A DNA stretch of 64,000 nucleotides. Source: Amycolatopsis sp. WQ 127309. Lineage in GTDB: Bacteria > Actinomycetota > Actinomycetes > Mycobacteriales > Pseudonocardiaceae. Shown here piece by piece: positions 11,391-36,806 of the stretch; the stretch's first letter is position 1; each line of letters starts with the position of its first letter. A model generated the notes under the pieces. The model made no database searches, was not told the origin of the DNA, and saw nothing but the letters and a program-made list of their open reading frames with translations. Both the position numbers and the translations under genes were made by a program. The stretch is from assembly GCF_023023025.1 (NCBI RefSeq), contig NZ_CP095481.1, positions 11,049,001 through 11,113,000 of the forward strand, in the 5' to 3' direction.

Positions 11391-11415
11391 GTTGTTCCGT
11401 CCTCTCGTTCGGGGT

Positions 11416-13622: not shown

Positions 13623-13675
13623 CGGCCTGCCTCCTCACTGTCCGAAGCGGAGAGTTGCGTTCCGCGTTTCCGGGA

Positions 13676-14674: not shown

Positions 14675-14678
14675 GACG

Positions 14679-16652: not shown

Positions 16653-17659
16653 TTGTTCACTCCTCCGTGAGTCAGCACTTCATCGGCGATCCGCTGCCGC
16701 CAGGTCTCGAACGCCGGGAGCTCGCCGTCGACGACAGTCGCCGGCCACACCTCCCGGGTGATCGCCGCGGCGCGCTCGGCGGGCAGGCCGCAGATCGCCC
16801 GGGTGGCGACCTCGGTCTCCGGCAGCAGCAGGCCCGCGGTCACCCGCGCGTCGGCCGCGAACGCACTCCCCTGGGCGAGCTGCCCGCGGTGCTTACCCGC
16901 GCGGCGGGCCAGCTCGGTCAGCTCGTCTTCCTTGACGCCGCAGGCGTAGGTCGACGCGAGGCCGACCCCGGCGTAGAGGTCACCGTGGCGAGCCGGGTCG
17001 AACCCGGCGATGGTCTTCGTCACCAGGTCGACGTCCGTGCCGCAGATGAACCACAGGGCCCGGCCGATGCCCTGGTCGATGGCCCGCAGCGCGTAACCGC
17101 TGTACTCCTTGGCCGGCCAGGGAAAGCCCGGCTCCTGGTACTGCTGCCGGACGTACTTCTCGGTCTTGAAGTACGCCTGGTGGAAGCCGTAGCCGTCGAG
17201 CACCAGCCACCGCAGCAGCGGGTCGAACCGGTCGGCCTTCGGCCAGGCGAAGCGCGGCAGCCGCGCCATCGCCCAGCCGGCGCCGACCAGGATGATGTAG
17301 TGCTGCCGCGCGCCACCCGGACCGGCGATGAAGTCGTCGACGTGCCGCCGGCTGCCGAAAGGCAGCCCGTCGAGCATCGCGTAACCCATTCCCGCGCCCT
17401 CGTAGGCGAATCCGCGGAACTGCACCGGAATGCGTTCCAGCCATTCCTCGCACTGCGCGGGATTGCGGGACTCGACGGCGTGCGCGTAACCGAGCAGGAA
17501 TTTCTTCCCCACCGTTTCCAGCAGCTCCTGAGCCTGCGGGCTCTTCTTGTGGAAACCACGCTTGTCCAGCGACGTCTCCGAGTCGTCCGGTGTCAGGATC
17601 CGGCGCCTCAATGCGCGCCAACCGTCGCCCAACGCATTCCCCTTTCGGGCTACGAACAT
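16649..17659 (-). CDS. DUF1702 enediyne protein (UnbL, E2/E3 type)
   Basis: 336 residues, DUF1702 family. Shared family landmarks include RGFAYEGAGMGYAMLDGL, the hydrophobic IILVGAGWAMARLPRF, LVLDGYGFHQAYF and RAIDQGIGRALWFICG. The function is unknown but it is a fixed companion of enediyne PKSs. The start is uncertain: ATG at 17659 has no clear ribosome site, whereas a TTG at about 17635 follows AAAGGGG at normal spacing. The stop overlaps the UnbV start. The gene upstream (17742-18737) is a paralogue, a pairing also seen as E2/E3 in nine-membered clusters. Confidence 0.88.
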   Translation of the reverse strand: MFVARKGNALGDGWRALRRRILTPDDSETSLDKRGFHKKSPQAQELLETVGKKFLLGYAHAVESRNPAQCEEWLERIPVQFRGFAYEGAGMGYAMLDGLPFGSRRHVDDFIAGPGGARQHYIILVGAGWAMARLPRFAWPKADRFDPLLRWLVLDGYGFHQAYFKTEKYVRQQYQEPGFPWPAKEYSGYALRAIDQGIGRALWFICGTDVDLVTKTIAGFDPARHGDLYAGVGLASTYACGVKEDELTELARRAGKHRGQLAQGSAFAADARVTAGLLLPETEVATRAICGLPAERAAAITREVWPATVVDGELPAFETWRQRIADEVLTHGGVNK

Positions 17660-17741
17660 CTTCCGATACTCGATTCAACTGTCACAGATTCCACTCCGGA
17701 CGGTCTACTCCACCGTTGCCGCCGGATTGCCCGGCCCGGAT

Positions 17742-18737
17742 TCAGCTCGCCGCGCGTTGTGCGTGCGGCCGGAATTCCGCCCGGATCGCGGCCCGCCACA
17801 GCTCGTACCGCGGGAGCGGGCCGCCGTCGTCGCCGACCGCCTCCGTCCGGTCGGAGATGGCCTGCAGCTGCCCGACCGCGAGGTCGGTGAGCACGCCGGC
17901 GGCGAGGTGGGTGTGCGCGGGCACGTACCCGGCGTACGTGCGGGCCTTCACCGCGAACACGACGCCGAGCGCGAGCTGGTCGTAGTGCTCCCCCGCGGCG
18001 TGGCGCAGCCGGGCCAGGCCGGACTGGTCACTGCCGCCGGCGAACGTCGCGGCCAGCCCGACCCCGCTCCACAGGTCCGCCCGGCGGGCCTCGGGGAACC
18101 GCCCGACCGCTTCGGCCACGGCGTCGGAGTTCCCGCCGTTGATGAACCACAGCGCGCGGCCGACCCCCTGGTCGAACGCCCGGCCGAAGTACTCCGGGCG
18201 GCCCGCCCACGGGTAGGGCACCGGGTCCGCCTGCTCGCCCACCCACTTGTCCGTGTCGAAGTAGGCGCGGTCGAAGCCGTAGCCGTCGACGGCGAGCCAG
18301 CTCATCACCGGGTGGTAGGTCACCCCGGTCAGCTCGGGCAGGATGTTCTTCCACAGTGGCCGCGGCAGCCGCGCCATCGCGAAGCCGATCCCGATGTAGG
18401 TCAGGAAGATGTGCGGGCGCCCCGGCCCTTCCAGCAGCGCGCGGGTGCGGTCGCGGCCGCCGCCCGGCATCGCGTCGAGGATCGTGTAGCCCATCGTCGC
18501 GCCTTCGTAGGCGAAGCCGCGCTGCTCGGGCTCGACCAGCGCCAGCCGGCGCTCGATCTCCCACAGCGGCGCACCTTCGATGGCCCATTCGAACCCGCAC
18601 ACGACCGCCTGCGGCACCGCCTCCAGCCGGGCCGTCGCGTCGGTGTGGGTGACCGGGAAGCCGCGCTCGGCGAACCCGACCGAAGCCAGTGATGGAGCCA
18701 GGAACCGCTTCCGAAGGACTCCGATTACCGTGGACAT
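17742..18737 (-). CDS. Second DUF1702 enediyne protein (E2/E3 type)
   Basis: 331 residues and clearly homologous to the next gene in the operon: RGFAYEGATMGYTILDAM, IFLTYIGIGFAMARLP, LAVDGYGFDRAYFDTDKW and RAFDQGVGRALWFING align throughout. The conserved aromatic and Gly-rich positions suggest a binding fold rather than a known active site. It is the first core gene after the AraC-type regulator gene (29 bases apart), so the regulator and core genes may be co-transcribed. Function unknown; the paired paralogues may form a heteromer. Confidence 0.88.
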   Translation of the reverse strand: MSTVIGVLRKRFLAPSLASVGFAERGFPVTHTDATARLEAVPQAVVCGFEWAIEGAPLWEIERRLALVEPEQRGFAYEGATMGYTILDAMPGGGRDRTRALLEGPGRPHIFLTYIGIGFAMARLPRPLWKNILPELTGVTYHPVMSWLAVDGYGFDRAYFDTDKWVGEQADPVPYPWAGRPEYFGRAFDQGVGRALWFINGGNSDAVAEAVGRFPEARRADLWSGVGLAATFAGGSDQSGLARLRHAAGEHYDQLALGVVFAVKARTYAGYVPAHTHLAAGVLTDLAVGQLQAISDRTEAVGDDGGPLPRYELWRAAIRAEFRPHAQRAAS

Positions 18738-18766
18738 GACGTGGTCGTCCTCTTCTCTTCGGCGGA

Positions 18767-19672
18767 TCAGGCGACGGCGCGCAGGTGCGGGTGCTGAGCG
18801 GCCCGCATGCGCTGGGTGAACGGCGACTGCTTCGAGGCCAGGGTGATCGCGATCGGCGCGTCGGTCGCGGCCGGCGCGCGCAGGCCCACCCGGCCGGTGG
18901 ACAGGCCCTCCGCCGTCACGGTCACGCTCGAGTAGCCGATCGAGAAGCGCGGCCCGCCCAGGCCCGGCTGGTGCTGCGCGACGGCGATCGCCGTCCACCG
19001 CCCCGCGGGCACGCCGTGGATCGACAGCTCTCCCGAGCTCATGCCGGCCGAGCCGCCGAAGGCGACCGGACCGCACTGGGGCACCGGGTCGGCGAAGAGC
19101 CCGACGAGGGTGTCCGCGGGCGCGGCGTCACCCGGCATGTCCAGCCGCATCGACAGCACACCCGTGCCCGACTGCAGCGAAGCGCAGCTGCGACCGGCCG
19201 CGCGCAACGTGCGCAGCGGCGGAAGCCGTTGCAGCGTCGGCGAAATCGCCACGAGCAGCTCGGCCACCTGCGGTTCGCGGTACTGCGTCGGCGTCAGCCC
19301 GACCGCCCGCGAGAACCGGCTGGTGAACGTGCCGACACTGCTGTAGCCGACACTGCACACGATGTCGGAGACGTTCAGCGACGTCGTCAGCAGCAGCCGC
19401 TTCGCCTCGAACAGGCGCACGGCGGTCAGGAACCGGCCCGGCGTCACGCCGGTGGCGTGGGCGAACATCCGGGAGAAGTGGAACCGGCTGACGAACACCT
19501 CGGAGGCCAGGTCCCCGAGCGTGATGGGCTCGTAGTAGCGCTCCTGGATCATGGAAATCGCCTGCAGCACCGCGGGCCGGACCGACTTCTCCACGCGCTC
19601 GATGGCCGGTGCCCGGGGCTCATCGTCGAATTCGCTCTCGTATCCGACAGCAGCTATAGACCGCAACATCAT
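18767..19672 (-). CDS. AraC-type regulator with N-terminal DNA-binding domain
   Basis: About 301 residues. The AraC/XylS double helix-turn-helix is near the N-terminus (residues about 35-133): ISMIQERYYEPITLGDLA, then SRFHFSRMFAHATGVTPGRFL and VGYSSVGTFTSRFSRAVGLTP. The C-terminal 160 residues form a separate beta-rich sensing domain. This order is reversed from classic AraC. A close relative with the same layout is encoded at 29792-30541. It heads the enediyne core operon, and its upstream region holds copies of the 13-bp element. Two adjacent ATG codons (19672 and 19669) are possible starts. It probably activates the core genes, as AraC-type SgcR2 does in C-1027. Confidence 0.87.
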   Translation of the reverse strand: MMLRSIAAVGYESEFDDEPRAPAIERVEKSVRPAVLQAISMIQERYYEPITLGDLASEVFVSRFHFSRMFAHATGVTPGRFLTAVRLFEAKRLLLTTSLNVSDIVCSVGYSSVGTFTSRFSRAVGLTPTQYREPQVAELLVAISPTLQRLPPLRTLRAAGRSCASLQSGTGVLSMRLDMPGDAAPADTLVGLFADPVPQCGPVAFGGSAGMSSGELSIHGVPAGRWTAIAVAQHQPGLGGPRFSIGYSSVTVTAEGLSTGRVGLRAPAATDAPIAITLASKQSPFTQRMRAAQHPHLRAVA

Positions 19673-19767: not shown

Positions 19768-20018
19768 AGGCGAAACGCACTCGGCCGGACGGCGTCCGAG
19801 CGGCCACGGGGAATCCACATCGACCGGACCGTGTGGAACGCACGGCGCGCGGGTGCGGGACGCCCGCACGTGTGGAGTGGGCGGTCCCGGCGCGCCCGTG
19901 CCTGGTCCGTTCCAGCGAACACCCGCGAAGACGGACGACCAGGGTAGGCCGAATGGCGGACCGTGCAAAACGCACACCGCGAACCTGCGTGACGCACGTG
20001 AGCACCCGACAAACGCAC
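19768..20018 (+). promoter_or_regulatory. Regulatory array 1: six copies of a GTGCGAAACGCAC-like element
   Basis: The 486-base divergent region between the AraC and SARP genes has no gene but holds repeated elements, all in the same orientation: AGGCGAAACGCAC (19768-19780), GTGTGGAACGCAC (19831-19843), GTGCGGGACGCCC (19853-19865), GTGCAAAACGCAC (19963-19975), CTGCGTGACGCAC (19985-19997) and CCGACAAACGCAC (20006-20018). The last three start 22 and 21 bases apart, an exact spacing found again at 29622 and 36751. Spacing near two helical turns fits direct-repeat binding by SARP/AfsR-type activators, but the binding protein is inferred. Confidence 0.6.
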
Positions 20019-20158: not shown

Positions 20159-20959
20159 ATGTACTCCGAATCGCCGCCACCGCCGGACGACACCGGGGTG
20201 ACGTTCACCGTCCTGGGGCCGCTGGAAGTGCTGCGTGGCGGGGTCGACTACGCGCCGACCACGCCCAAGGTGCTGCAGCTGCTCGCCGTGCTCGTGCTGC
20301 GCCCGGGCAAGATGGTACACATCGACACGCTCATCCGGGAGCTCTGGTCGGACAACCCGCCGCGGACGGTGCGCACGACGCTGCACACCTACGTCTACCA
20401 CCTCCGCCGGTGCATCGACCAGAACGGGCTGGCCGCCGACGGCGAGAAGATGCTGGCCACCAAGCAGTCCGGCTACACCTTCTACATCGACCCGACGCGA
20501 GTGGACACCCACCGGTTCATCCGGCTGCAGCAGCTCGGCCACGAACACCAGGACGCCGGACGCCACGCCGCGGCGGCCGACGCCTACCGGGCGGCGCTCG
20601 ACCTCTGGTCCGGGCCGCCGCTGGCGAACGTCCACTGTGGACCGGTGTTGTCGGCCTACCGCACGGAACTGCTGGAGCAGCGGCGCAGTGTGCTGCACCT
20701 GCGGATCGAAGCGGAGATCATCAGCGGCAAGCACCGCGAGCTGATCGGCGAGCTGCGGTCGCTGGCCACCGGCAGCCCGCTGGACGAAGCACTGCACGGG
20801 CAGCTGATGCGCGTGCTCGGCCGCAGCGGGCGCCGGTCCGACGCGATGGCCGTCTACCGCCGGCTGCGGTCGCGGCTGGCCGGCGAACTGGGAGTCGAGC
20901 CGTGTGACGACCTCCAGGTGCTGCACCGCGAGCTGATCTCCGAAGGGGATCACCGCTGA
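20159..20959 (+). CDS. SARP-family pathway activator
   Basis: 266 residues: an OmpR-type winged helix (residues about 14-105; FTVLGPLEVL at the start, then a DNA-recognition helix in TVRTTLHTYVYHLRR) followed by a bacterial transcriptional activator domain (residues about 110-260, TPR-like, ending ELGVEPCDDLQVLHREL). This is a stand-alone SARP without the AfsR ATPase. SARPs turn on antibiotic clusters by binding direct repeats next to the -35 region. ATG is set by GGAGG nine bases upstream. The upstream region carries the triplet of 13-bp elements ending 140 bases before the start, so autoregulation is possible. Confidence 0.92.
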   Translation: MYSESPPPPDDTGVTFTVLGPLEVLRGGVDYAPTTPKVLQLLAVLVLRPGKMVHIDTLIRELWSDNPPRTVRTTLHTYVYHLRRCIDQNGLAADGEKMLATKQSGYTFYIDPTRVDTHRFIRLQQLGHEHQDAGRHAAAADAYRAALDLWSGPPLANVHCGPVLSAYRTELLEQRRSVLHLRIEAEIISGKHRELIGELRSLATGSPLDEALHGQLMRVLGRSGRRSDAMAVYRRLRSRLAGELGVEPCDDLQVLHRELISEGDHR

Positions 20960-25820: not shown

Positions 25821-28220
25821 TTGTCTCCGGTCACCGCACTCGAGTCTGCCGCCGAACGTTCGGTGACCGCCGAACCCCGCGGTACGACCGCGGCGGACCG
25901 GCGGCCCCGGCTGGCCGCCTACCTGGCCTCGGCCATCGTCGTCGCCGTCGTCGCCGGTTTCAGCGTGATCGGGCTGGTCAACCTGCTGCTGCTGCCGGGG
26001 CCGGTCGGCTTCCTGCGCGGCGCCTACGCGCTGCTGGGCATCGGCGGGCTGCTGGCCATCCAGCTGCTCTGGTTCAGCCGCCCGGCCGTCCGGCACGACT
26101 CCGCCACCAGCCTGATCCTGGTCGCCGTGATGGTCGTGCTGGCCTACGTCCCCCTCCTGACCTTCGGGCTGCTGTGGGCCGACATGCCCGTCTTCGTCGG
26201 CGGAGCGGTGCTGCTCGCCCTGCCGGCGCGATACGCCGGGCCGGCGCTGACCGCGGTGTTCTTCAGCGTCGCCTGGATCTACTGGTTCTTCGACGCCTCG
26301 CCGCTGAGCATCGTGTACAACGCGGCCGGCTCGGTGTTCTACAGCCTGGTCTTCTACTTGCTGACCCGGCTCGCGCGCATGGTGCACAACCTCCACGAGG
26401 CCCGCACCGAACTGGCCCAGCGCGCGGTCGCGGAGCAGCGGCTGGCCTTCGCCCGCGACCTGCACGACCTGCTCGGCATGAGCCTGTCGGCGATCGCGCT
26501 CAAGGGCGAGCTCGCGCACCGGCTGATGCGGAAGTCCGTGGACCGCGCCAAGGCCGAGCTCGCCGAGATCACCGCCACCGCCCAGCGCACCCTGTCCGAC
26601 GTCCGCGCGATCTCCCACGGCTATCGCGAGCTGTCGCTGGAAAAGGAGTCCCGGACGGCCGAATCGCTGCTGTCGGGCTCCGAGATCGCCGTGCAGATCC
26701 ACCTCGACCAGGGTGACCTGCCGGTGCAGACGCGCACGCTGCTGGCCAAGGTGCTCCGCGAAGGGGTCACGAACGTCCTGCGCTACAGCGACGTCGAGCA
26801 CTGCGAGATCGACGTCCGGCACCAGGACGGCAAGGTCACCCTGGAGATCGTCAACGACGGCATGACGGCGGACGCCCCGGCGCTCTCGCCGGACAGCAGG
26901 CTGACCAGCCTGCCCGGGGAGTTCGCCGCGCTCGGCGGCACCGCGAGCGCGAAGATCGACGCGGACGGCCGGTTCCGGCTGCGCGTCGAGCTGCCCGTGC
27001 CCGGCCGCCAGGGCACCCCCGCCCCGCACGAGGGCGAGCAGCGGACGCAGATCGAGTCGAAGCGGATCCGCAGGCTGCTGCCGCTCACCATGGCGATGAT
27101 GGCCTTCGGCGCGACCGTGCACGAGCTCCAGCTGACCGACCAGCCGTGGGACCTGGCCCTGGTCGTCGGCTCGATCGCGGCGCTGCTCGCCCTGCAGTTC
27201 TCGTACTTCAACCGCCCGACGACCCAGCTGCGCTCGGCGCAAAGCTACGGGATGCTGTTCGTCCAGGCCTGCCTGATCTACCTCCCGCTGCTGCCGCTGG
27301 GGCAGAACTGGGTCAGCCTGCCCGGGCTGCTGATCGGCAGCGCGCTGCTGGTCCTGCCCCCGGTGCTGGGCTGGGCGTTCTTCGCGCTGAACATCGCCGC
27401 CTACGCGGAGATCCAGCGGATCTCGGGCGCCGACATCACCTCCACCGTGTTCTACACCGCCGCGACCGTGATGACCGGGCTGGCCGTGTTCGGGCTGCTG
27501 TGGCTGGTCCGGCTGGTCACCGAGCTGGACAGCACCCGGCGGCGCCTGGCCGAGATGGCCCTCGCCGAGGAACGCCTGCGCTTCGCCCGCGACCTGCACG
27601 ACCTGCTCGGCATGAGCCTGTCCGCGATCGCGCTGAAGAGCGAGCTGACCGCCCGGGTGCTGCCGCTGGACCGCGGCCGGGCCGAAGAGGAGCTGACGGA
27701 GGTCCTCGGCCTGACCCGCCAGGCGCTCTCCGACGTCCGGTCGGTGGCCAGCGGCTACCGCGAACTGTCCCTCGACAGTGAATCCCGCACCGCGAGGTCC
27801 GTGCTGGTGGCCGCGGACGTCAAGGTGCGCATGGAGATGCTCGAAGACGAATTGCCCACGACGGTGCGCACGGTACTGGCCGTCGTCCTGCGCGAAGGCA
27901 TCACGAACGTGCTGCGCCACAGCAAGGTGGAGAGCTGCGAGATCGCGATGCGCCGCACCGGCAACGGGATCTGCCTCGACATCGTCAACGACGGTGTCCA
28001 GCGGGACGCCGCCCGCGTGCCCGCCACCCGCTCGGAAGAGCAGGCGGCGGCCGGGGTGCCCGCACCGCGGCTCGCGGGCACGGTCGCCGTGCCCGCCGAC
28101 GCGTCCCCGGGCAGCGGGATCGGCAACCTCTCCCACCGGGTCACCGACCTCGGCGGCAAGCTCACCGCCGGGATCGAGCCGGACGGCCGGTTCCGGCTGC
28201 GGGCCGTCGTCCCGGTCTGA
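25821..28220 (+). CDS. Tandem (double) DesK/NarL-type sensor histidine kinase
   Basis: 799 residues made of two complete homologous kinase units. Unit 1 (1-400): about five membrane segments (33-185), HisKA_3 motif [18 protein letters not shown] with His215, and N-box REGVTNVL (Asn318). Unit 2 (410-799): membrane segments (417-565), the same motif with His593, N-box Asn695, and a glycine-rich GSGIGNL (765-770). Unit 1 lacks that last ATP-lid motif: its equivalent region (about 355-372) has no GxGxxN, so unit 1 may not bind ATP normally. The start is TTG after GGAGGGG. It converges with the response regulator gene at 28275, its likely partner. Confidence 0.9.
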   Translation: MSPVTALESAAERSVTAEPRGTTAADRRPRLAAYLASAIVVAVVAGFSVIGLVNLLLLPGPVGFLRGAYALLGIGGLLAIQLLWFSRPAVRHDSATSLILVAVMVVLAYVPLLTFGLLWADMPVFVGGAVLLALPARYAGPALTAVFFSVAWIYWFFDASPLSIVYNAAGSVFYSLVFYLLTRLARMVHNLHEARTELAQRAVAEQRLAFARDLHDLLGMSLSAIALKGELAHRLMRKSVDRAKAELAEITATAQRTLSDVRAISHGYRELSLEKESRTAESLLSGSEIAVQIHLDQGDLPVQTRTLLAKVLREGVTNVLRYSDVEHCEIDVRHQDGKVTLEIVNDGMTADAPALSPDSRLTSLPGEFAALGGTASAKIDADGRFRLRVELPVPGRQGTPAPHEGEQRTQIESKRIRRLLPLTMAMMAFGATVHELQLTDQPWDLALVVGSIAALLALQFSYFNRPTTQLRSAQSYGMLFVQACLIYLPLLPLGQNWVSLPGLLIGSALLVLPPVLGWAFFALNIAAYAEIQRISGADITSTVFYTAATVMTGLAVFGLLWLVRLVTELDSTRRRLAEMALAEERLRFARDLHDLLGMSLSAIALKSELTARVLPLDRGRAEEELTEVLGLTRQALSDVRSVASGYRELSLDSESRTARSVLVAADVKVRMEMLEDELPTTVRTVLAVVLREGITNVLRHSKVESCEIAMRRTGNGICLDIVNDGVQRDAARVPATRSEEQAAAGVPAPRLAGTVAVPADASPGSGIGNLSHRVTDLGGKLTAGIEPDGRFRLRAVVPV

Positions 28221-28274: not shown

Positions 28275-28880
28275 TCACAGCCAGCCGGACTCTTCGGCGA
28301 TGCGGATCGCGTCCACCCGGTTGCGGGCGTTGAGCTTCGCGACGACCGTCGTGAGGTAGTTGCGGACGGTCCCGGCGGACAAGTAGAGCCGGGCGGCCAC
28401 CTCGACCGTCCCGAAGCCCTGCGCGGTCATCCGCAGGACGTCCAGCTCCCGGGCGGTGAGCGGGCAGTCCACCGAGTCCCAGGCCGCCAGCGCCAGGTCG
28501 CCGTCGACCATGCGCCGGCCGGCGAGGACCCCCCGCACGGCGTTGGCCAGCTTGTCCGGGGGCGCGTCCTTGAGCAGGAAGCCCCCCACCTTGGCGTCCA
28601 GCGCCCGGCGCAGCGTCCCGGGTCTGCCGAGGCTGGTGAGGATGACCGTCCGGCAGTCCGGGACCTGTTCGTGCAGCTCACCGGCGGCGGTGAGCCCGTC
28701 CATGCCCGGCAGGTCGATGTCGATGACCGCCACCTGCGCCTCTTTCGCGCGGGCCATCGGCACGATGTCGAGGCCCGACGCCACCTCCGCGACCACGTCG
28801 ATGTCGGGCTCCAGCCGGAGCAGGGCGACCAGCGCCCCACGCACGATGTGCATGTCCTCTGCGACGAGCACTCTGATCAC
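28275..28880 (-). CDS. LuxR/NarL-type response regulator (copy 1)
   Basis: 201 residues: receiver domain (1-120) with the acidic pocket AED, phospho-acceptor Asp54 (VIDIDLPGMDG) and Lys in LLKDAP, then a LuxR helix-turn-helix (LTARELDVLRMTAQGFGTVEVAARLYLSAGTVRNYL). GTG at 28880 is chosen because GGAGG lies six bases upstream and this gives the same 201-residue length as its paralogue at 30747. A GTG 18 bases earlier is the alternative. Partner kinases of this class are DesK-like; the convergent tandem kinase is the nearest candidate. Transcripts from the small peptide gene upstream could run into it past a hairpin. Confidence 0.92.
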   Translation of the reverse strand: MIRVLVAEDMHIVRGALVALLRLEPDIDVVAEVASGLDIVPMARAKEAQVAVIDIDLPGMDGLTAAGELHEQVPDCRTVILTSLGRPGTLRRALDAKVGGFLLKDAPPDKLANAVRGVLAGRRMVDGDLALAAWDSVDCPLTARELDVLRMTAQGFGTVEVAARLYLSAGTVRNYLTTVVAKLNARNRVDAIRIAEESGWL

Positions 28881-29098
28881 GGATGCCTCCGCACTCACGA
28901 TTCCCCAGAACCCCAGTTAAACATTCTGCCCGAGGAATCGGTTGCACCATTCGGGCACCACTGGCGCCGGCATCGCGAAATGTCCGGGCACCCACCGGGA
29001 CGGCTCGAGGAAAAGATCTATCCGCAACCGGACAGCTACCTGTGGTGACCGGTGACGGAGGCTCGGACGAGCGTGGTGGGAAATTTTCCGGCTTGCCC

Positions 29099-29129
29099 CG
29101 CTTGTGGACTGTGCGACGGTCCACAAGCG
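29099..29129 (-). terminator. Hairpin after the small peptide gene
   Basis: CGCTTGTGGAC (29099-29109) pairs perfectly with GTCCACAAGCG (29119-29129). It lies 33 bases beyond the stop of the 57-residue peptide gene and is followed on the minus strand by an A/T-rich stretch near 29083. This is a terminator or attenuator that would let the peptide be expressed more than the regulator gene behind it, as is common for RiPP precursor genes. Confidence 0.65.
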
Positions 29130-29161: not shown

Positions 29162-29335
29162 TCAGGCGGCTTCCAGGACGTCCGCCCGGCAGAAACAGGT
29201 ACGAGCCGGGCCGCCCGAAGTGGCCTCTTGCCACTGTCCGAACTGTTCGATCACCAGGTCGGTGGCCGTCTTGTCGAACTCGATGCCCATATCCGAGAAA
29301 AGCGCGCGAACGTCAGCGGAAACATGTGCAGTCAT
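29162..29335 (-). CDS. Candidate RiPP precursor peptide (57 aa)
   Basis: ATG at 29335 follows a strong ribosome site (GGGGAGAA). Residues 1-37 are acidic and helix-forming (SADVRALFSDMGIEFDKTA, then DLVIEQFGQWQEA) like a leader. The end is ATSGGPARTCFCRADVLEAA: Thr39, Ser40, Thr46, Cys47 and Cys49 are possible azoline sites, and Gly41-Gly42 a possible cleavage point. The gene sits about 5-7 kb from a ThiF/YcaO cyclodehydratase and a SagB-type dehydrogenase, within a region of paired regulators, and has its own hairpin. I know no family member by sequence, so RiPP precursor is an inference; a small metal- or redox-binding CxC protein is the alternative. Confidence 0.6.
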   Translation of the reverse strand: MTAHVSADVRALFSDMGIEFDKTATDLVIEQFGQWQEATSGGPARTCFCRADVLEAA

Positions 29336-29560
29336 TGTTGTTCTCCCCAGTGACGAAGATGAATTCTCCACGTGCCACAAATCGTCGCTCAGGGATGCGT
29401 TGACAACCAGTGCCGGTGTCACCGGGCCGTTGTGGCTTACACATGCTCCGCGCGGCTCGGGAGAGACTCCGAATGGGCTAACAAACCATCGACGCGGGAG
29501 CGATCCGGGGGCTTTCGTCACCGTCCGCGTCCGGTCGGTCACGGCCCGCCGCTACGCAGC

Positions 29561-29677
29561 GTGCAGAACGCACATCTCGTCATGGTCGGACTACCCGGTC
29601 CGGCGGCCGCCGGACCCGGATGTGCGAAACGCATGTCGACCATCGGCGAAACCCATGCGCACCGGTGCACAGAGCAC
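29561..29677 (+). promoter_or_regulatory. Regulatory array 2: four copies of the 13-bp element
   Basis: The 456-base divergent region between the small peptide gene and the second AraC gene has no gene. It holds GTGCAGAACGCAC (29561-29573), GTGCGAAACGCAT (29622-29634), CGGCGAAACCCAT (29644-29656) and GTGCACAGAGCAC (29665-29677), all in plus orientation. The last three start 22 and 21 bases apart, as in array 1. They end 114 bases before the AraC start. Confidence 0.6.
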
Positions 29678-29791
29678 TTAAGAAGTAGACGTCCGCAGAT
29701 CTACAGTTTTGGTCGAAATCAAGTGCCCGCAGCGGATGCCTTCGTCGGGAAGGCCCGGAGGGCGGCTCCCACGTCGGAAGGACGGCCCGCG

Positions 29792-30541
29792 ATGGATGAG
29801 ATCGTCCGGCAAGCTGTGGCTCGCGCCATCGTGACCATGCGCAACCACTTGGACGAACGGCTCACGATCGACGACCTCGCCCGTGCGGCCGTGTTCAGCA
29901 AGTTCCACTTCACCCGGGTGTTCCTCCGGGTCACCGGGCTCTCGCCCGGCCGCTTCCTGTCCGCCTTGCGGCTGGCCGAGGCGAAACGCCTGCTCGCGAC
30001 CACCGAGACCTCGGTGGCCGACATCAGTCACCAGGTCGGCTACAACAGCGTCGGCACCTTCAGCGCGCGGTTCAGCGGCAGCGTGGGCGTCTCGCCGTCC
30101 GGCTACCGCCAGCTGGGCGGCACCGCGCCGCGGCTGTCCGACCGGCAGGCCTGCCCCGGCTCGGAGGCGACCATCCGGGGCCAGCTGCGGGTGCCCCTGC
30201 CGGCCGAGGTGGGGCCGGTGTTCATCGGGCTCTTCGCTGCCCGGATCACCGAAGGCGCGCCGGCCCGGCACGTGATCCTGCCGCGGCCCGGGCCCTACGC
30301 GTTGACGAACGTCCCGCTCGGCTCGTGGTTCGTGCTGTCGCACGCCTACGGCACCACGGCGCCCGACGACACGGCGCTGCGGCCCTTCACCGGCCTGACC
30401 GGACCGCTGACCATCCACCGCGGCGTCACCGCGAGCCTGGCGGACGTCCGGATGCGACCGCGGGACGGTTTCGACCCGCCCGTGCTGCTGGCGCTGCCGG
30501 ACCTGCGCCAGCCCGCGATATCCCGGCCGATGGCGAGCTGA
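29792..30541 (+). CDS. AraC-type regulator with N-terminal DNA-binding domain (copy 2)
   Basis: 249 residues. The double helix-turn-helix is at residues about 5-108 (LDERLTIDDLARAAVFSKFHFTR, GLSPGRFLSALRLAEAKRLL, VGYNSVGTFSARFSGSVGVSP). A 130-residue C-terminal domain follows, with the same layout as the protein at 18767-19672, to which it is clearly related. ATG at 29792 follows GGAAGGA. Its upstream region holds the second triplet of 13-bp elements. It may control the divergent peptide gene. Confidence 0.88.
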   Translation: MDEIVRQAVARAIVTMRNHLDERLTIDDLARAAVFSKFHFTRVFLRVTGLSPGRFLSALRLAEAKRLLATTETSVADISHQVGYNSVGTFSARFSGSVGVSPSGYRQLGGTAPRLSDRQACPGSEATIRGQLRVPLPAEVGPVFIGLFAARITEGAPARHVILPRPGPYALTNVPLGSWFVLSHAYGTTAPDDTALRPFTGLTGPLTIHRGVTASLADVRMRPRDGFDPPVLLALPDLRQPAISRPMAS

Positions 30542-30700
30542 ACGCGCGCTTTTCCGGCCGTGGACCCGCCGTCCGCACCGCGCGGACGGCGGGTCTCGCG
30601 CGTCACGGGTCCGCTCCGGCGGGAACCGCGGAATTCCGGACGTTCTCACCCGGACGATCGAGCGGCGTCCGCGAAACACCGGCACCGGGGACGAATGACG

Positions 30701-30706
30701 TACAAT
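30701..30706 (+). promoter_or_regulatory. Possible -10 box (TACAAT) before response regulator gene 2
   Basis: TACAAT lies 41 bases before the GTG start in an otherwise GC-rich region. No matching -35 is visible at normal spacing, so this is weak. Confidence 0.3.
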
Positions 30707-30746
30707 CACCACACGGAGTCGCTGAACTGGGGGGCGAGGTACCGGC

Positions 30747-31352
30747 GTGATCAAGGTGTTGCTGGCCGAGGACATGCACATGGTTCGCGGCGCCCTGGTC
30801 GCCCTCCTGAACCTGGAGTCCGACATCGAAGTGGTGGCCGAGGTGTCCTCGGGCGACCAGATCCTGCCCGCCGCGAAAGCGGCGATGCCCGACGTCGCGG
30901 TGATCGACATCGACCTGCCGGGCAAGGACGGGCTGTCCGCGGCGATCGAAATCCACGAGAGCCTGCCCGACTGCCACACGCTGATCCTCACCAGCCTCGG
31001 CCGGCCGGGCACGGTGCGCCGGGCGCTGGACGCGAAGGTGAACGGCTTCCTGCTGAAGGACGCCCCGTCGGACAAACTGGCCAACGCCGTGCGTTCGGTC
31101 GCGATAGGACGCCGGTTCATCGACAGCGAACTCGCACTGGCGGCCTGGGAAACCGACGACTGCCCGCTCACCCCGCGCGAGCTCGAGATCCTGTCCCTGG
31201 CCGCGAAGGGCCGCACGGTCGCCGACATCGCCGCGGAGCTGTACCTCTCGGCGGGCACGGTGCGCAACTACCTGGCCGCCGTGGTGACCAAGCTGAACGC
31301 CCGCAACCGGGTACACGCCATCCGCATCGCCACCGAAGCCGAATGGCTCTGA
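30747..31352 (+). CDS. LuxR/NarL-type response regulator (copy 2)
   Basis: 201 residues from GTG (GGCGAGG upstream). Receiver domain with Asp54 (VIDIDLPGKDG) and LLKDAP, then a LuxR domain (LTPRELEILSLAAKGRTVADIAAELYLSAGTVRNYL). It is highly similar to the regulator at 28275 along its whole length, differing mainly in the helix after the first HTH strand and in the linker, so the pair comes from a duplication. It converges with the histidine kinase at 31596, the likely partner. Confidence 0.92.
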   Translation: MIKVLLAEDMHMVRGALVALLNLESDIEVVAEVSSGDQILPAAKAAMPDVAVIDIDLPGKDGLSAAIEIHESLPDCHTLILTSLGRPGTVRRALDAKVNGFLLKDAPSDKLANAVRSVAIGRRFIDSELALAAWETDDCPLTPRELEILSLAAKGRTVADIAAELYLSAGTVRNYLAAVVTKLNARNRVHAIRIATEAEWL

Positions 31353-31382
31353 CCGGTCCGATGTGACCGGACCTCGGGAGCC

Positions 31383-31610
31383 GGTTGGACGCTCGGCATG
31401 GGCACTCAGCATGGGCACTCAGCCCGACCACACAACGCGTCCACTTAGCTCAGGCGCTCGGCTCGCCCACTCAACCCGGGCACTCAGTTCGGGTGCTCGG
31501 CTCGCCCACTCAGCTCAGGCACTCAGCTCGGCTCGGCTGCTCAGCCCGCCCGCGCAGCCCGGCACACAGCCCGCCCACCCACTCACCTCGGGCGCTCAGC
31601 TCGCCCGGCG
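31383..31610. repeat. Degenerate 12-13 bp tandem repeat between convergent genes
   Basis: About 17 imperfect copies of a unit close to GGCACTCAGCTCG (variants GGTGCTCGGCTCG, CCCACTCAGCTCA, GGCGCTCAGCTCG). The array fills the whole space between the response regulator and the kinase, and the kinase stop codon is in the last copy. Spacers are not unique, so it is not a CRISPR. Confidence 0.8.
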
Positions 31611-32789
31611 GCGGCGGGCGAGCTGCGGGCCTGAGCGCACCGGGATCGCGGCCAGCAGGCGGTGGGTGCCGTCCGGGCCCGTTTCCGTCGTCAGGGCGCC
31701 GTCCAGGGCCTGTACGCGGTCGCGGAGGTTGCGTAGCCCGGCGCCCGAGTCCGCGCCGTCGCAGGCCGCGCCCGCGGCTCCGTCGTTGACGATCTCCAGC
31801 CAGGCCGTTCCGTCTTCGGTGCTGACGGAGAACGCGCACCAGCTCGCGCTGCTGTGGCGCAGCACGTTCGTCACCCCTTCGCGCAGCACCATGGCCAGCA
31901 CGGTGGCGACCTGCGGCGGCAGGCCGCCGAGCCCGGAGCGGGCCACGGTCACGCGGGTGCCGGCCGCGCTCAGCACCGCCGCCGCCGCCCGGCACTCGTC
32001 CTCGATCGACAGGTCGCGGTAGCCGGCGGCGATCGTGCGCACGTCGGCCAGCGCGCGCCGCGACATCACCAGCAGTTCGCCGAGCTCCTCCTTGGCCTGG
32101 CCCGGCCTGTCGAGCACGAGGCGGTCGACCAGTTCACCCTTCAGGGTGATCGCCGAAAGGCTCATCCCCAGCAGGTCGTGCAGGTCGCTGGAGAACCGCT
32201 TGCGTTCCTCGGTGATGGCCTGGCGCTTCAGCTCGCGCACCTGCTCGCCGCGCTCGGCCACCAGCCGCGCGGCCGTGCCCAGCCCGAACAGCGCGAGCGT
32301 GGCGACCCCGGCGGACACCGCGCCCGCCAGGCCGGCGGCGACCGACCCACCCGGCAACGCCGGGACCACCGCCGCCCCGGCGCACGCCAGCAACGCGCCG
32401 GGCACCGCGATGACCGGCCGGAACGTCAGCAGCACGCCCCCGGCGAAGAACCCGCCGGCCACGCTCCACGACGCGCCGAACGGCAGCAAGCCGACCACCG
32501 CCTGCAGGAGCAGCACCAGGACCGGTCGCCGGGTTCGGCCGCGGCCGAACCCGGCCAGGTACGCCACCGCCAGCACCGCGGCGCAAACCGGCGCGGCCAG
32601 CCGGACGAGCCCGGGCTGGGGGCCGGTCAGCACGGGCAGGGACGCCAGCGACGCCACCCCGATCGCGGCCGCCACCTGTGCGGCGAACACGAGTGTCCGG
32701 GTCTCGGACCGCTCGTCCTCGAACGCGGGAGGCGGATCGGCGGCCGGCCCCTGGAGCCGCGTCCCGCGAATCGGTATCGGCTGAACCAC
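31596..32789 (-). CDS. DesK/NarL-type sensor histidine kinase
   Basis: 397 residues. GTG at 32789 is chosen because GGGAGGG precedes it. About six membrane segments (residues about 35-185) have no sizeable external domain. A HisKA_3 motif [21 protein letters not shown] carries the phospho-accepting His. The ATPase domain has N-box [11 protein letters not shown] and an intact lid GAGLRNL. It is related to each half of the tandem kinase at 25821. It reads toward the response regulator at 30747 and is the likely partner. The C-terminal tail ([11 protein letters not shown]) is probably added by the repeat array, which supplies the stop codon. Confidence 0.9.
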
Positions 32790-32858
32790 GAGCCCTCCCA
32801 GATACCCCCTGGATCCCGGAGACTCCAAGGTAACAGGGAAGTCCGGGAAAACGGGAGG

Positions 32859-34304
32859 TCACCGCGAGGGCGGGAAATCCAGGACGCACTCGCCGACGCT
32901 CACCTCGGCCGGCCACTCCAGCTTCAGCGAGCGGTCGACCCGGTCCCCGGCGTCGACCGGCACGGCGTGCGCGGCCAGCCCCATCGCCTTCGCGGTCAGG
33001 TAAAGGACCTGCTGCAGGGCACCGACGTGCAGCAACGTCGTCGCGTACGCGGCGTTCCCCAGCACCCACGCGATCCGCGACATCCGCGCGGTCATCGTCA
33101 GCAGCACCGGCGGCCGGCGGTGGCTGCCGGCCCCGACCATCGCCAGGTCGAGCAGGCCGTCGAGGCCACCGGCGTCGTCGTTGGTCAGCGTCAGGGTGTG
33201 CCACAGCGGGTCGTAGTGGTAGATCCCCCGCGCCAGGCCGACGCAGCGGTTGATCGCGACGTAGATCTCGAGCTCGTACAGGCAGGCGACGCTGAAGTAG
33301 GGCCGCTGGGAGGCCTCGTGGGCCGGGCCGCCGGGCAGGTACGCCGGGCCGACCGAGCGCACCCGCGCGGCGCGGAAGAGCAGCTCCCCGATCTGCTCGG
33401 CGGACAACGCGCGCTCGGTCATCTCGGGGCAGGTGTGGTCGTCTTCGAGCAGCTCGCTCAGCGTCGGGTCGTTGGCCTGGAGCATCGCCGGGCTGGGCCG
33501 GTGCAGCGGGAAGGTCGAGCCGGCCGCGGTCTGCTTGACCACCGGCGGCTCCGCGCCCTCGCGGTGCGCCCCCGGATCCGTCGGGCCGCCCTTCTGCCAG
33601 GTCCGGCTCCGGGCGTGGAACAGCAGGTCACCGGGCGACCAGACGGCCAGGTCACCGTCGGTGTCCTCGGTGAACCGCGCCCAGTCGTCGGCCAGCAGCG
33701 CCACCCCCGCGGCCACCAGGAACGCGATGATGTCGGCCACGACCGGCTCGGCCAGCCCGGTGGTCTCCGCGACCTGCGCGACGGTGACCGGACCGGCCAG
33801 CGACGAGACCACGAGCATCGCCGGCGGCCGCAGCAGCGCGACCCGGTACCGGGCGCGGGGGGACTCGAGCAGCAGCCCGCCGCCGTCCGGGCGCATCGCC
33901 GAGAACCGGGAGAGCTTGACCTGCCGGCCGGGTGGCACCGGTTCGGCCTGGAAGACCGGGGACTGGGTGACCGGGATCGCCGAGAGCAGCGGACCGCGGC
34001 CGTCGTTGAGCGCGAGCGAGTGCACGACCGAGCCGGCCAGCCGGTTGAGCACCCGGCGCAGCGTGCCGGCCCAGGCTTCGGCGCCACCGCGCGCCGACGA
34101 GACCAGGTTGGCCATCGACACCGGCCCGAGCAGCAGCCGGCTCAGCGACTCGCGGACCGCTTCGGGAATGCTCGCCAGCTCGTACTCGCCCCACCACGTG
34201 ATCGCGACGAGCGTGTCGTCCTCCCCCGCTTCCAGCAGGGTGTCTTCGCTCAGGGACCACAGCCGGACGGTCTCCGGACTGCCCTCCAGGCCGTCTGCAA
34301 GCAA
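32859..34304 (-). CDS. SagB-type FMN dehydrogenase (azoline oxidase)
   Basis: 481 residues from a TTG start with AGGAGA upstream. The C-terminal half is a nitroreductase-fold SagB/ThcOx domain (LLFRAARVRSVG, YELEIYVAINRCVGLARGIYHYDP, LLHVGALQQVLYLTAKAMGLAAHAVPV). The N-terminal half resembles the extra domain of such enzymes. In TOMM biosynthesis this FMN enzyme oxidises thiazolines and oxazolines to thiazoles and oxazoles on the precursor peptide. It starts 50 bases after the cyclodehydratase gene on the same strand and clearly belongs to the same operon. Confidence 0.88.
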   Translation of the reverse strand: MLADGLEGSPETVRLWSLSEDTLLEAGEDDTLVAITWWGEYELASIPEAVRESLSRLLLGPVSMANLVSSARGGAEAWAGTLRRVLNRLAGSVVHSLALNDGRGPLLSAIPVTQSPVFQAEPVPPGRQVKLSRFSAMRPDGGGLLLESPRARYRVALLRPPAMLVVSSLAGPVTVAQVAETTGLAEPVVADIIAFLVAAGVALLADDWARFTEDTDGDLAVWSPGDLLFHARSRTWQKGGPTDPGAHREGAEPPVVKQTAAGSTFPLHRPSPAMLQANDPTLSELLEDDHTCPEMTERALSAEQIGELLFRAARVRSVGPAYLPGGPAHEASQRPYFSVACLYELEIYVAINRCVGLARGIYHYDPLWHTLTLTNDDAGGLDGLLDLAMVGAGSHRRPPVLLTMTARMSRIAWVLGNAAYATTLLHVGALQQVLYLTAKAMGLAAHAVPVDAGDRVDRSLKLEWPAEVSVGECVLDFPPSR

Positions 34305-34353
34305 GGTATTCTCCTAGGGCGGAACAACGAGCACTGAGCCTCCCGCGGGACTC

Positions 34354-36675
34354 TTAAAGAAACATCGGGAACGGGTTGAGGCCCTCGTACGGCGTCGGCG
34401 CGTCGAGCCGGCCGAGCCGGACCGGGACGTCGAACAGCCGGCCGGGCGCGAACCGGGCCCAGAACGGCCGCAGGCCCGGGACGAGCACCTTGACCACCGG
34501 GATCCCGACGTCCGGCCGGGTCTGGTCGAGCACGAGCAGCTCGAGACCCGCTTGACCGAGCAGCCGGGCCAGCGCCTCGACGTCGTCGCGGACGTCGGAC
34601 CGGTTGACGTACGGGAAGTCGGCCGCGGCCCGCATCCGCTGCCCGGCCGCGGGCCGCAGGTAGGGCTGGTTGGCGACGGTGGCGTACGCGAGCCAGCGCC
34701 GCGCGTCCGGGTCGTCGACGTCGTGGCCCGCGGCCTGCACGACGGGCAGCATCTGGTTGAGCTCGGTCACCGCCCGGCGCACCGCGATTCGCGGGTCGAG
34801 GTGGGCGCCGAAGCCCATCATGATGTCCTCGTGCGGGCCGTCGGTCCGCCGCGAAAGCGCGACGGCCACCGGGATCCCGAGATCGGACGTCACGTCGAGG
34901 ACCCACAGCTCCCGGCCGAGCGTCGCGTAGCCGGCCGACATCTCCTCCAGCCACGGGTCGCCGAAGGACGCGAGGTCGACGCCCGGCACCGGCGTGCGGT
35001 TGTACCACCACAGCGCCACCGCGTCGCGTTCGACGAGCTCCAGCGCGCCCTGCAGGATCGCGTCCTCCAGGCTGCTGCCCGCCGCGGCGCCGTTCGAGTC
35101 CGCGCGCACCCCGGGCGTCGCGTGCTCCCGCGGGATGCCGTAGTACAGGTAGGACGTCGGCAGCAGGCGGCGCTGCCCGGTGAGCGACCACACCGGCGTC
35201 CAGTCGACCTCGGCCGCCGGGTCGAACGGCGCGGGGATCCCCTGGAACTCCGCGTGGGCGCGGTTCCAGGCCGCGCGGTCGCGGTACTGCCGGTCGTCGA
35301 AGAGCATGCATTCGTTGGGGTGGACGGCTTCCTCGCCCAGCTGCTCGTAGGAGCCGCGGATGCGGAGCTCGTCGCCCTGGAAGTTGCCGGAGAACCGCTC
35401 CGCCGCCTCGCAGAGGGCGCTGACCTCGGCGTCGAGCGGGCTGACGCCCTTGCCGCCGTTCTCGCAGCGCAACCCGGCGCGCAACGCGGCCATCCCGGTG
35501 ACGCCGCGGGCGACGTTGGGCCCGGAGCGGTAGGCGTTGGCGAACGACGGCGCGTCCGGGTCCGGCCGGATCTCCTTGATGATCCCGGTGACCGGGCTGA
35601 CCAGGTGCCGGTGCCGGCTCAGCATCTCCGCCGGGGTGGTCGTCCGGTGCCCGCCACCGCCGGTGGTCGCCTTCTTCGCCGGCTGCAGCACCACCGGGCG
35701 GTCCGTGCGCCCGGCCACCAGCGACGGGTCGCCGCAGTCCGGGCACTGCGGGCGGCGGCGCAGCTCGTGCAGCCGGCCCTGCAGGTCGAGCGTGTCCAGC
35801 GTCCACACGCACTGCTGGCCAGGATGGCGGTAGCCGGCCAGCCACTTGGACGCCTCCAGCGCGACCAGGTGCGCCGCGGCCGCGGTCAGCGACGGCAGCG
35901 CCGACACCGGGCGGTGCGCCGGGCCGGCGTGGCCGAGTTCTTCCTGCACGCAGGCCTCGGCGTGCCGGTGGCCCCACAGCCGGTGCGTCAGGCAGTGCCA
36001 GCAGGCCTCCCCCGGCTGGAGCACCGGGCCGATCCACACCTGGGCCCCGGACGGGCGCGCGAGCAGCCAGGGCCGCCCGGTCCGGCGGTGCTCGGCGTCG
36101 ATCACGGCCAGGCGCGGGTCGAGGTAGTCGGCGCACAGCACGATCGAGAGGTCGGCGACGCCGGCGTCCGCGGGCACCACCGCGATACCGGCGTCGGCCA
36201 GCGCCCGCTCGACGGCTCCGGGGTCGGTGCCGGCGGCGCTGTCGCCCACCGCGATCAGCGCCGCGGTGCCCGGCCGCGCGGCGACGACGTCGGCGTCGAT
36301 GCCGCAGGCGTCCCAGTAGGCCAGCGCGCGCTCGTCACCCGGCCGGGTGCCCCCGGCCGGCTTGCGCAACGTCACCAGGCCGGCGTCGACCAGCTGGGTC
36401 AGCAGCGCGGCGACCTCCTCCGGGGCCATTCCCCCCGGCCGCCCGCGCAGCAGCCGGTCGAGGTCGTGCGTGCCGTCGAGCAGGGCCGCCAGCGATTCGA
36501 TCTTGGCCCCGCGCATCGCGATGACGCCCTGCTCGGAGAACAGGTAGGCGCCCTTGCCCGCGTGGACCTCCGCCCGCAGGTGCCGCCGGAACGCCGGGGT
36601 CGGGGCGGGAGCGGGCGTGGCCGCGGCGGGCCCGCCGTCGTCCGGTACCCGCACGTCCACCGCTGTTGTGCGCAT
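34354..36675 (-). CDS. Fused ThiF-like/YcaO azoline cyclodehydratase (TOMM C-D fusion)
   Basis: 773 residues. Residues 30-105 look like a winged-helix leader-binding domain (RRE). Residues 130-320 form an E1/ThiF-like domain with a zinc tetracysteine (Cys225, Cys228, Cys311, Cys314). Residues 355-773 form the YcaO domain with ATP/Mg motifs: SALCEAAERFSG (419-430), SNGAAAGSS...LELVERDA (527-552) and RRAVTELNQ (633-641). The C-terminus ...NPFPMFL resembles the PxPxP tail of azoline-forming YcaOs. It uses ATP to cyclise Cys, Ser or Thr side chains on a peptide. AGGAG fixes the ATG. The SagB gene is next in the operon; no protease or exporter gene of the RiPP type is adjacent. Confidence 0.93.
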   Translation of the reverse strand: MRTTAVDVRVPDDGGPAAATPAPAPTPAFRRHLRAEVHAGKGAYLFSEQGVIAMRGAKIESLAALLDGTHDLDRLLRGRPGGMAPEEVAALLTQLVDAGLVTLRKPAGGTRPGDERALAYWDACGIDADVVAARPGTAALIAVGDSAAGTDPGAVERALADAGIAVVPADAGVADLSIVLCADYLDPRLAVIDAEHRRTGRPWLLARPSGAQVWIGPVLQPGEACWHCLTHRLWGHRHAEACVQEELGHAGPAHRPVSALPSLTAAAAHLVALEASKWLAGYRHPGQQCVWTLDTLDLQGRLHELRRRPQCPDCGDPSLVAGRTDRPVVLQPAKKATTGGGGHRTTTPAEMLSRHRHLVSPVTGIIKEIRPDPDAPSFANAYRSGPNVARGVTGMAALRAGLRCENGGKGVSPLDAEVSALCEAAERFSGNFQGDELRIRGSYEQLGEEAVHPNECMLFDDRQYRDRAAWNRAHAEFQGIPAPFDPAAEVDWTPVWSLTGQRRLLPTSYLYYGIPREHATPGVRADSNGAAAGSSLEDAILQGALELVERDAVALWWYNRTPVPGVDLASFGDPWLEEMSAGYATLGRELWVLDVTSDLGIPVAVALSRRTDGPHEDIMMGFGAHLDPRIAVRRAVTELNQMLPVVQAAGHDVDDPDARRWLAYATVANQPYLRPAAGQRMRAAADFPYVNRSDVRDDVEALARLLGQAGLELLVLDQTRPDVGIPVVKVLVPGLRPFWARFAPGRLFDVPVRLGRLDAPTPYEGLNPFPMFL

Positions 36676-36750
36676 GGGGCTCTCCTGCCGGCAGTCGGGA
36701 GGATTGAACGAGGACCCGAATCCTGCTCCTGCAGGCCGGGGCCCGGCCAG

Positions 36751-36806
36751 TGTGGAAATGCACGGAGAAGTCGTGCGAAACGCATGTTTCGACCTGGGAA
36801 ACACAG
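36751..36806 (+). promoter_or_regulatory. Regulatory array 3: triplet of the 13-bp element
   Basis: The 295-base region between the cyclodehydratase and the second HxlR gene holds TGTGGAAATGCAC (36751-36763), GTGCGAAACGCAT (36773-36785) and CTGGGAAACACAG (36794-36806). The starts are 22 and 21 bases apart, the same geometry as at 19963 and 29622. The first and third copies are weaker matches. Confidence 0.55.

Follow-up and report, generated by a model that had tools for sequence, protein, structure and literature searches.

Why would an apparent enediyne gene cluster of Amycolatopsis house the machinery for an azole-bearing peptide? The question is raised by a stretch of 64,000 nucleotides from Amycolatopsis sp. 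WQ 127309 (G000:C1:11049001-11113000, in a genome of 11.13 Mb), hereafter the window, in which a ribosomally synthesized and post-translationally modified peptide (RiPP) module of the thiazole/oxazole-modified microcin (TOMM) type stands beside an enediyne-type cassette. A previous reading of this DNA, made from the sequence only, had left three roles open for the peptide: a separate product, a signal, or a piece joined to the enediyne. The evidence now favors the signal, and we consider it probable that the system is a peptide pheromone (autoinducer) system with a TOMM-type RiPP as its signal, controlling the enediyne. What goes beyond the sequence-only reading is a double histidine kinase (HK2x) encoded beside the peptide, the co-variation of this kinase with the peptide core, and a shared DNA site. 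The genes, the precursor family and its linkage, the core-sensor co-variation and the shared site were all computed here; the papers cited are drawn on in excerpt.

The putative azole-forming enzymes and their probable precursor

The three genes at issue, encoding a fused YcaO protein, a SagB-type dehydrogenase and a 57-residue peptide, were found on the minus strand where the sequence-only reading had placed them (Table 1), and its claim that the two enzymes form a TOMM azole-making pair within an enediyne cluster agrees with the family models. The YcaO protein is a cyclodehydratase with a leader-binding partner domain, with matches above cut-off to PF02624 (348 bits), TIGR03604 (277 bits) and the leader-binding model TIGR03882 (147 bits); the ThiF model reached 21.8 bits, under its cut-off of 28.1. 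The dehydrogenase is of the flavin mononucleotide-type SagB kind that serves azole formation, with TIGR03605 (SagB) and PF22767 (ThcOx) above cut-off. The closest solved sequences to the cyclodehydratase are LynD, TruD and MusD, and the solved relatives of the dehydrogenase are CyaGox and a SagB-type dehydrogenase. Nine Amycolatopsis records were the named relatives retrieved with the window's YcaO. The same genome holds a second fused YcaO (L082, G000:C1:10136333-10138495), 58% identical to that of the window, around which there is no match to the window's SagB or kinases.

The precursor gene comprises 57 codons with GGGGAG ahead of the ATG, and the hairpin 3' of it (-27.5 kcal/mol, z -3.66, equalled by 0 of 200 shuffles) is not followed by a U run; the strong ribosome site and the gene's own hairpin, both proposed earlier, are borne out. 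A structure model of the peptide was poor (predicted local distance difference test, pLDDT, 59) and was not used. A single-sequence search with the peptide found relatives in 41 of 390 family genomes and seven proteins in a large protein set, its sole match outside the genus (G062, E 7e-4) not being recovered by profile. A scan of small open reading frames (ORFs) that required a ribosome site found a peptide relative with coding bias in all 27 syntenic loci of group A, that is, loci of the window's own type, and the group A relatives were recovered again by place and sequence. The other widely shared small-ORF clusters that were inspected look like fragments of larger genes, frames on the antisense strand or, in one case, a 102-residue frame resembling a YCII-type protein.

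A profile built from 20 members and applied at a threshold of E 0.01 or better matched 58 of 80 genus genomes, namely 58 of the 60 with a YcaO of at least 60% identity and 0 of the 20 without, a distribution that upholds the peptide as the precursor. Several of these matches are weak (e.g., G146 at E 0.005), G087 and G089 gave none despite a family YcaO, and 7 genomes in a profile search of a set of 16 were without a precursor match. In group B, neither the single-sequence search nor the small-ORF scan found a precursor near YcaO; the profile then resolved it. Among the loci of other types, 15 (10 of which belong to other genera) have a match on the same strand as YcaO, either immediately upstream of it or abutting it (G112, G142, G138, G111, G146, G018, G042, G021, G006, G379, G206, G314, G204, G051 and G353). 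The E-values of YcaO-adjacent matches range from 2e-10 to 0.02, and where they are weak, position is therefore the better evidence; those of G204, G353 and the YcaO-preceding copy of G051 were recovered solely by the small-ORF search. The sequence-only reading had conceded that its candidate would fall if another precursor stood next to orthologous YcaO genes, and what stands there in these 15 loci are relatives of the same peptide. It had made the same concession for homologues occurring without any YcaO gene. No member occurs in the 20 genus genomes without this YcaO; counting in part against the candidate, the members at L027-L032 lie far from YcaO, but the enzyme is encoded elsewhere in each of these genomes. 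Group B genomes more widely (L027-L032, L121-L123, L142, L143) carry such extra precursor copies distant from YcaO, with CFTGACC in every core; the pieces fetched around them contain no match to window proteins, except for an AraC2-like one in L142.

The family has the layout of a linked TOMM precursor, with a conserved leader (..VRxLF..LGI....LVIDRF.xW) and a variable core bearing Cys, Ser or Thr, the mean distance being 0.40 for the leader and 0.68 for the core. The motif [S/T/C]-x-C occurs in 41 of 46 Cys-bearing cores, compared with a mean of 10.1 and a largest value of 20 over 1000 shuffling rounds, an excess that kinship among the sequences inflates. Judged by these sequence comparisons, the 57-residue peptide is very probably the precursor of the YcaO/SagB pair.

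Kinase sensors and the peptide core

Next to the precursor is encoded HK2x, a single 799-residue chain in which HisKA_3 occurs twice and whose halves are 42% identical. Both halves contain a phospho-acceptor motif, only the second has a glycine-rich motif near its C-terminus, and hydropathy gives four membrane-like stretches per sensor. Its structure model (mean pLDDT 76) has DesK-like kinase parts; a fold search with this model returned DesK-type kinase domains at the top and was uninformative on the sensors. No clear glycine-rich motif of the ATP lid is present in the first unit. Other genera too have HK2x-like chains, some 770-820 residues long, and in G115 (L061:12941-14119) the HK2x frame is broken, leaving an open frame of 392 residues, through sequence error or decay. 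A HisKA_3 kinase with a LuxR-type regulator is an arrangement of the ComP/ComA type, and a HisKA_3 membrane kinase with LuxR-type response regulators is what the locus contains. The precursor adjoins HK2x in 27 of 27 group A loci, with the response regulator RR1 between them in 26. It likewise adjoins RR1/HK2x in all 12 fetched, testable loci of other Amycolatopsis types (L070, L109, L111, L113, L114 with L080, L115, L117, L119, L120, L138, L139 and L140), where YcaO is 3 to 29 kb off; L141 ends at a contig edge and hence falls outside the 12.

Pairwise distances between precursor cores were compared with those of each neighboring segment over 28 group A loci, and partial correlations were taken given YcaO. 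The two HK2x sensors track the core (sensor1, r 0.88, partial 0.82; sensor2, r 0.84, partial 0.77). Values for the rest of the two-component genes are r 0.45 and partial 0.31 for kinase1, 0.50 and 0.06 for kinase2, 0.36 and 0.00 for RR1, 0.44 and -0.26 for RR2, and 0.54 and 0.11 for the kinase part of HK3, a separate single kinase. Those for the YcaO leader-binding domain (r 0.47, partial -0.10), SagB (0.57, 0.27) and the gene g235 (0.49, -0.10) complete the series, and the precursor leader correlates with the sensors at 0.19 (sensor1) and 0.09 (sensor2). For pairs of loci that straddle the two YcaO clades (17 by 11), the sensors give a raw r of 0.90 and 0.92 and kinase1 one of 0.37, and the values of twelve other segments range from -0.18 to 0.21. 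Along HK2x, 60-residue windows have a partial r of 0.64-0.77 in sensor1, 0.42-0.70 as far as about residue 600, and -0.17 to 0.16 in kinase2. When cores were shuffled within clades, p was 0.0002 for both sensors, 0.22 for kinase2 and 0.59 for RR1. With CopCD as the control in place of YcaO, which is the stricter of the two, the sensors retain 0.88 and 0.84, and once ten further loci are included they reach 0.74 and 0.70 given kinase2, the leader reaching 0.38 and 0.27. In clade 2 alone, kinase2 also correlates with the core (0.63).

Trees divide the loci in the same direction. Twenty loci of a core-sensor type that we call type I form a single clade in the sensor tree (support 96); on the YcaO tree type I needs 3 changes and a type I clade is rejected (p of the approximately unbiased test, p-AU, 7e-6), and the corresponding kinase2 test does not discriminate (p-AU 0.37). 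Within type I the fine correlation persists (0.74 and 0.63). The presumed signal part and the sensing part of the presumed receptor thus co-vary in groups, as in ComQXPA. Because the core follows those sensors, the peptide probably serves as a chemical signal, and selection that keeps ligand and receptor matched would explain the pattern well.

HK3 was also considered as the receptor and was rejected: its sensor, although more variable than any other enzyme or kinase segment measured (mean distance 0.51), has a partial r of 0.07 (r 0.50).

The shared site and the putative enediyne cassette

One DNA site recurs in the promoter regions of the precursor, of YcaO-SagB and of the enediyne SARP gene. 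All 28 loci have TGC[A/G][A/G]AACGCA at a fixed place between the precursor gene and AraC2 (30 sites in total), and 17 of the 28 have it upstream of YcaO. The pattern GTGCRRAACGCAY has five matches in the whole genome, four of them in the window (AraC1-SARP gap, precursor-AraC2 gap twice, YcaO-HxlR gap), and the reversed GTGCRRAACGCAY pattern, as a control, has none; the pattern having been derived from the window sites, this genome count is not independent, whereas the species comparison is. Within the window, TGCGNNACGCA with one mismatch is not enriched (31 vs 35.7 by chance), and GTGCGAAACGCAT with two mismatches is weakly so (4 vs 1.5, reached by 8 of 100 shuffles). The case for an operator therefore comes from its fixed place across species and not from counts. 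A site of a wider pattern lies 2.2-2.4 kb from DUF1702 in 12 of the 19 group A genomes with places listed, a distance equal to the position of the gap between AraC1 and the gene of the Streptomyces antibiotic regulatory protein (SARP)-type activator in the window. Of these genomes, G113, G114, G124 and G125 have a further site at a distance of 132 bp (6 times 22). In G152 there are three sites in its own AraC1-SARP gap, of which two are spaced by 22 bp, plus one upstream of the precursor. A spacing of 22 bp between repeats is suggestive of an AraC- or SARP-type binder, so that the response regulators need not bind the site themselves. At L070:15011-15197 the AraC1-SARP gap contains operator copies at spacings of 22 and 154 bp (7 times 22).

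The cassette, at about 3.6-19 kb, contains genes for an E10-like thioesterase, a flavin reductase, a large iterative-type polyketide synthase (PKS), UnbV/ASPIC, DUF1702 and a second DUF1702, and in the E5 place an RnfD-like gene whose match is under cut-off. By gene content this is an E3/E4/E5/E/E10 set like that of enediyne clusters (PMC5181780). No NCBIfam model reaches its cut-off on the PKS, and the cassette is taken as a putative enediyne cassette from the set of genes it contains rather than from a comparison with a PKS proven to make an enediyne. Among known compounds derived from enediynes, the amycolamycins come from Amycolatopsis (PMC8037709); the survey PMC5181780, as excerpted, never mentions Amycolatopsis in its main text.

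The window's YcaO and DUF1702 were searched in 390 family genomes and the listed rows tallied. Within the genus there are 59 YcaO matches of at least 62% identity, one per genome, and 57 of these are within 30 kb of DUF1702 on the same contig; at the other two loci (G107, G108) the genes are on separate contigs. The tie to the enediyne cluster that the sequence-only reading had suspected is thus real. In other genera DUF1702 is near YcaO in 9 of 40 entered rows and not near in 31, and in one group SagB-YcaO sits between the cassette with AraC1 and the SARP gene. To judge from gene placement, the association of YcaO with the enediyne is an old one. Modules also exist in genomes without a DUF1702 match: in G146 with a ketosynthase and SARP adjoining, in G379 with oxidoreductases adjoining, and in G221 with a nonribosomal peptide synthetase (NRPS) piece adjoining, no SagB match and a poor precursor match (E 0.54). 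At L137, in another genus, a YcaO/double-kinase/response-regulator module has no SagB match and an NRPS piece nearby; an operator site there lies 108 bp upstream of the YcaO match.

Features of the window are collected in Table 1. RR1 and RR2 are 71% identical. Two HxlR-type regulators, at 21024-21722 (behind the SARP gene) and 36554-37666 (behind YcaO), are 63% identical to one another. A search against Rfam gave no match.

Table 1. Position, strand and basis of the features in the window (coordinates count from its first nucleotide).
Feature	Position	Strand	Basis or remark
Probable TOMM precursor, 57 residues; leader ~1-35, core ~36-57 with T-C-F-C	29162..29335	-	
Hairpin 3' of precursor gene	29102..29129	-	folding vs shuffles
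Fused leader-binding/E1-like/YcaO cyclodehydratase	34354..36675	-	Pfam, NCBIfam models, solved relatives
SagB/ThcOx-type dehydrogenase	32859..34304	-	family models, solved relatives
HK2x, double histidine kinase, two sensor+HisKA_3 units, 799 residues; proposed pheromone receptor	25821..28220	+	
RR1, response regulator, LuxR-type DNA-binding domain, between HK2x and precursor	28275..28898	-	
RR2, response regulator, LuxR-type DNA-binding domain	30747..31352	+	
HK3, single membrane histidine kinase	31596..32828	-	
AraC2, AraC-family regulator divergent from precursor	29792..30541	+	start read from sequence; scanned as 29372-30541
AraC1, AraC-family regulator, enediyne side	18767..19672	-	
SARP-type activator, BTAD + Trans_reg_C	20159..20959	+	
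Putative enediyne cassette: flavin reductase, E10-like thioesterase, PKS, DUF5987, RnfD-like, UnbV, two DUF1702	3598..19076	-	
Operator copy GTGCAGAACGCAC, precursor-AraC2 gap	29561..29573	+	
Operator copy GTGCGAAACGCAT, precursor-AraC2 gap	29622..29634	+	place kept in 28/28 loci
Operator copy GTGCGAAACGCAT, 98 bp upstream of YcaO	36773..36785	+	
Operator copy GTGCAAAACGCAC, AraC1-SARP gap	19963..19975	+	

A proposed pheromone circuit and its rivals

In the circuit that we propose, the [S/T/C]-x-C residues of the core would be cyclized and then oxidized by SagB to one or more azoles, the leader and perhaps also the conserved C-terminal end would be cut off, and the small peptide would leave the cell. 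Outside, it would be sensed by the membrane-sensor regions of HK2x, which would signal via the LuxR-type RR1 and/or RR2 and, directly or via AraC/SARP regulators, act on the shared operator at the precursor, the YcaO-SagB operon and the enediyne SARP activator. The enediyne would then be made once enough kin of the same type are present. Secretion of the peptide and its binding by the kinase are steps that we infer from the co-variation only.

Such a circuit resembles ComQXPA of Bacillus, in which, likewise, the small precursor carries its signal in a variable C-terminal part, an enzyme is devoted to modifying it, the kinase varies in its N-terminal membrane part, the response regulator is conserved, and communication groups, or pherotypes, exist (PMC4008528). 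Of the ComQXPA proteins, ComX is reported to vary most and the regulator least, with variation greatest at the signal end of ComX and in the N-terminus of ComP (PMC4008528). The present circuit differs in that YcaO and SagB take the place of an isoprenyl transferase and the kinase is a double chain, and in that the host is actinobacterial, the census in PMC4008528, as excerpted, having found no such system outside Firmicutes. No ComX-family match to the precursor was obtained among Pfam families up to E 1, and no ComQ isoprenyl transferase is present among the scanned neighbors, where the YcaO/SagB pair is found instead. As both precursor and modifying enzyme differ, we do not class the system as ComQXPA. 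The cyclodehydratase shares its fused domain order with the cyanobactin enzymes LynD and TruD, which with CyaGox and MusD are the closest solved sequences, but the precursor is different, and no PatA/PatG-type subtilisin protease was found among the scanned neighbors (not every ORF was scanned). Goadsporin is a TOMM. It is a 19-residue actinobacterial peptide that induces sporulation and alters secondary metabolism in relatives; unlike the signal proposed here, it is postulated to act via Ffh, and no dedicated kinase receptor is named in the excerpted text (PMC6027282). An autoregulator of the IM-2 type is listed for Amycolatopsis (PMC4748050). Among the matches listed in our literature search, in which most subscription journals were outside scope, none described an enediyne cluster containing a TOMM module, YcaO-linked autoinducers or pheromone kinases, or RiPP pheromones in Actinobacteria; the one paper with both enediyne and YcaO, as excerpted, concerns a thiopeptide.

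Several observations weigh against a pheromone circuit. Five of 51 cores lack Cys, and, in line with the sequence-only reading, no RiPP protease or exporter was found among the scanned neighbors (most, not all, ORFs). Under the CopCD control, non-sensor segments retain partial correlations of 0.36 to 0.57 (p 0.002 or less), and under shuffling within clades kinase1 (0.31, p 0.001), SagB (0.27, p 0.02) and CopCD (0.11, p 0.04) are not clean zeros. Types I and II were named after inspection of the data, the YcaO tree accounts for their exchange with about 3 changes, the partial correlation within the 7 type II loci is about zero, and the unity of YcaO clade 2 is borderline rejected in the sensor tree (p-AU 0.055). 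The wider pattern RTGCRRAACGCAY is equally frequent, elsewhere, in module-less genomes (e.g., 7 in G093, 6 in G088), and the exact operator is mostly absent from other lineages. The ring chemistry, the processing and export, the binding to HK2x, the protein at the site and the direction of regulation are all features that we infer.

Three rival accounts were weighed. TOMM products are often antibacterial, and NisRK, which senses nisin, offers a model in which the module makes its own azole peptide toxin (bacteriocin), HK2x senses it for self-protection or autoinduction, and the enediyne is merely co-regulated. A toxin would predict core-sensor co-variation too, and goadsporin is at once a growth inhibitor and an inducer of sporulation in relatives (PMC6027282); yet immunity or export genes are absent among the scanned neighbors, many cores have just one or two cyclizable residues at a conserved place, and the operator is also in the SARP gap, so we hold this account to be unlikely. 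Plain linkage would make the two-component system an ordinary cluster regulator that adjoins the precursor by chance, the co-variation arising from linked DNA exchange. The genes are indeed only about 1 kb apart, part of the signal comes from few exchanges, and kinase1, inside the block, correlates too. However, kinase2 and RR1, which lie between the sensors and the precursor, show no correlation overall, the leader shows little although it belongs to the same gene as the core, and the fine correlation within type I stays; linkage is therefore a poor explanation, and we judge it improbable.

A further idea, that the enediyne incorporates the azole peptide or some part of it as a building block, seems to us just as improbable. 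It accords with the proximity of YcaO-SagB to DUF1702 in 57 of the 59 genus loci and with the group in which the pair lies between cassette and SARP gene, but not with the modules of G146, G379 and G221, whose genomes have no DUF1702 match, or with the 31 of 40 entered rows from other genera in which the module is not close to DUF1702; nor does it give a reason for the core to track kinase sensors or for extra precursors elsewhere in the genome. The modules without enediyne genes and the tracking of the kinase sensors by the core are why an enediyne-RiPP conjugate was dropped as the first choice.

Returning to the pheromone, we lean, with some reserve, towards a new actinobacterial class of quorum sensing, in which a YcaO-made azole pheromone is received by a double-headed kinase in distinct communication groups, and whose genes form a portable module that sits within the enediyne locus in Amycolatopsis and its relatives and next to other clusters elsewhere. 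If this is true, the genes for the precursor of an azole peptide pheromone, for its maker and for its receptor, and those that it targets, have been named in a phylum whose signaling has so far mostly been ascribed to butyrolactones and similar small molecules. It would offer a reason for the presence of a TOMM module in enediyne clusters, and would bear on the purpose of TOMM products in antibiotic clusters and on the timing of enediyne expression in Amycolatopsis.

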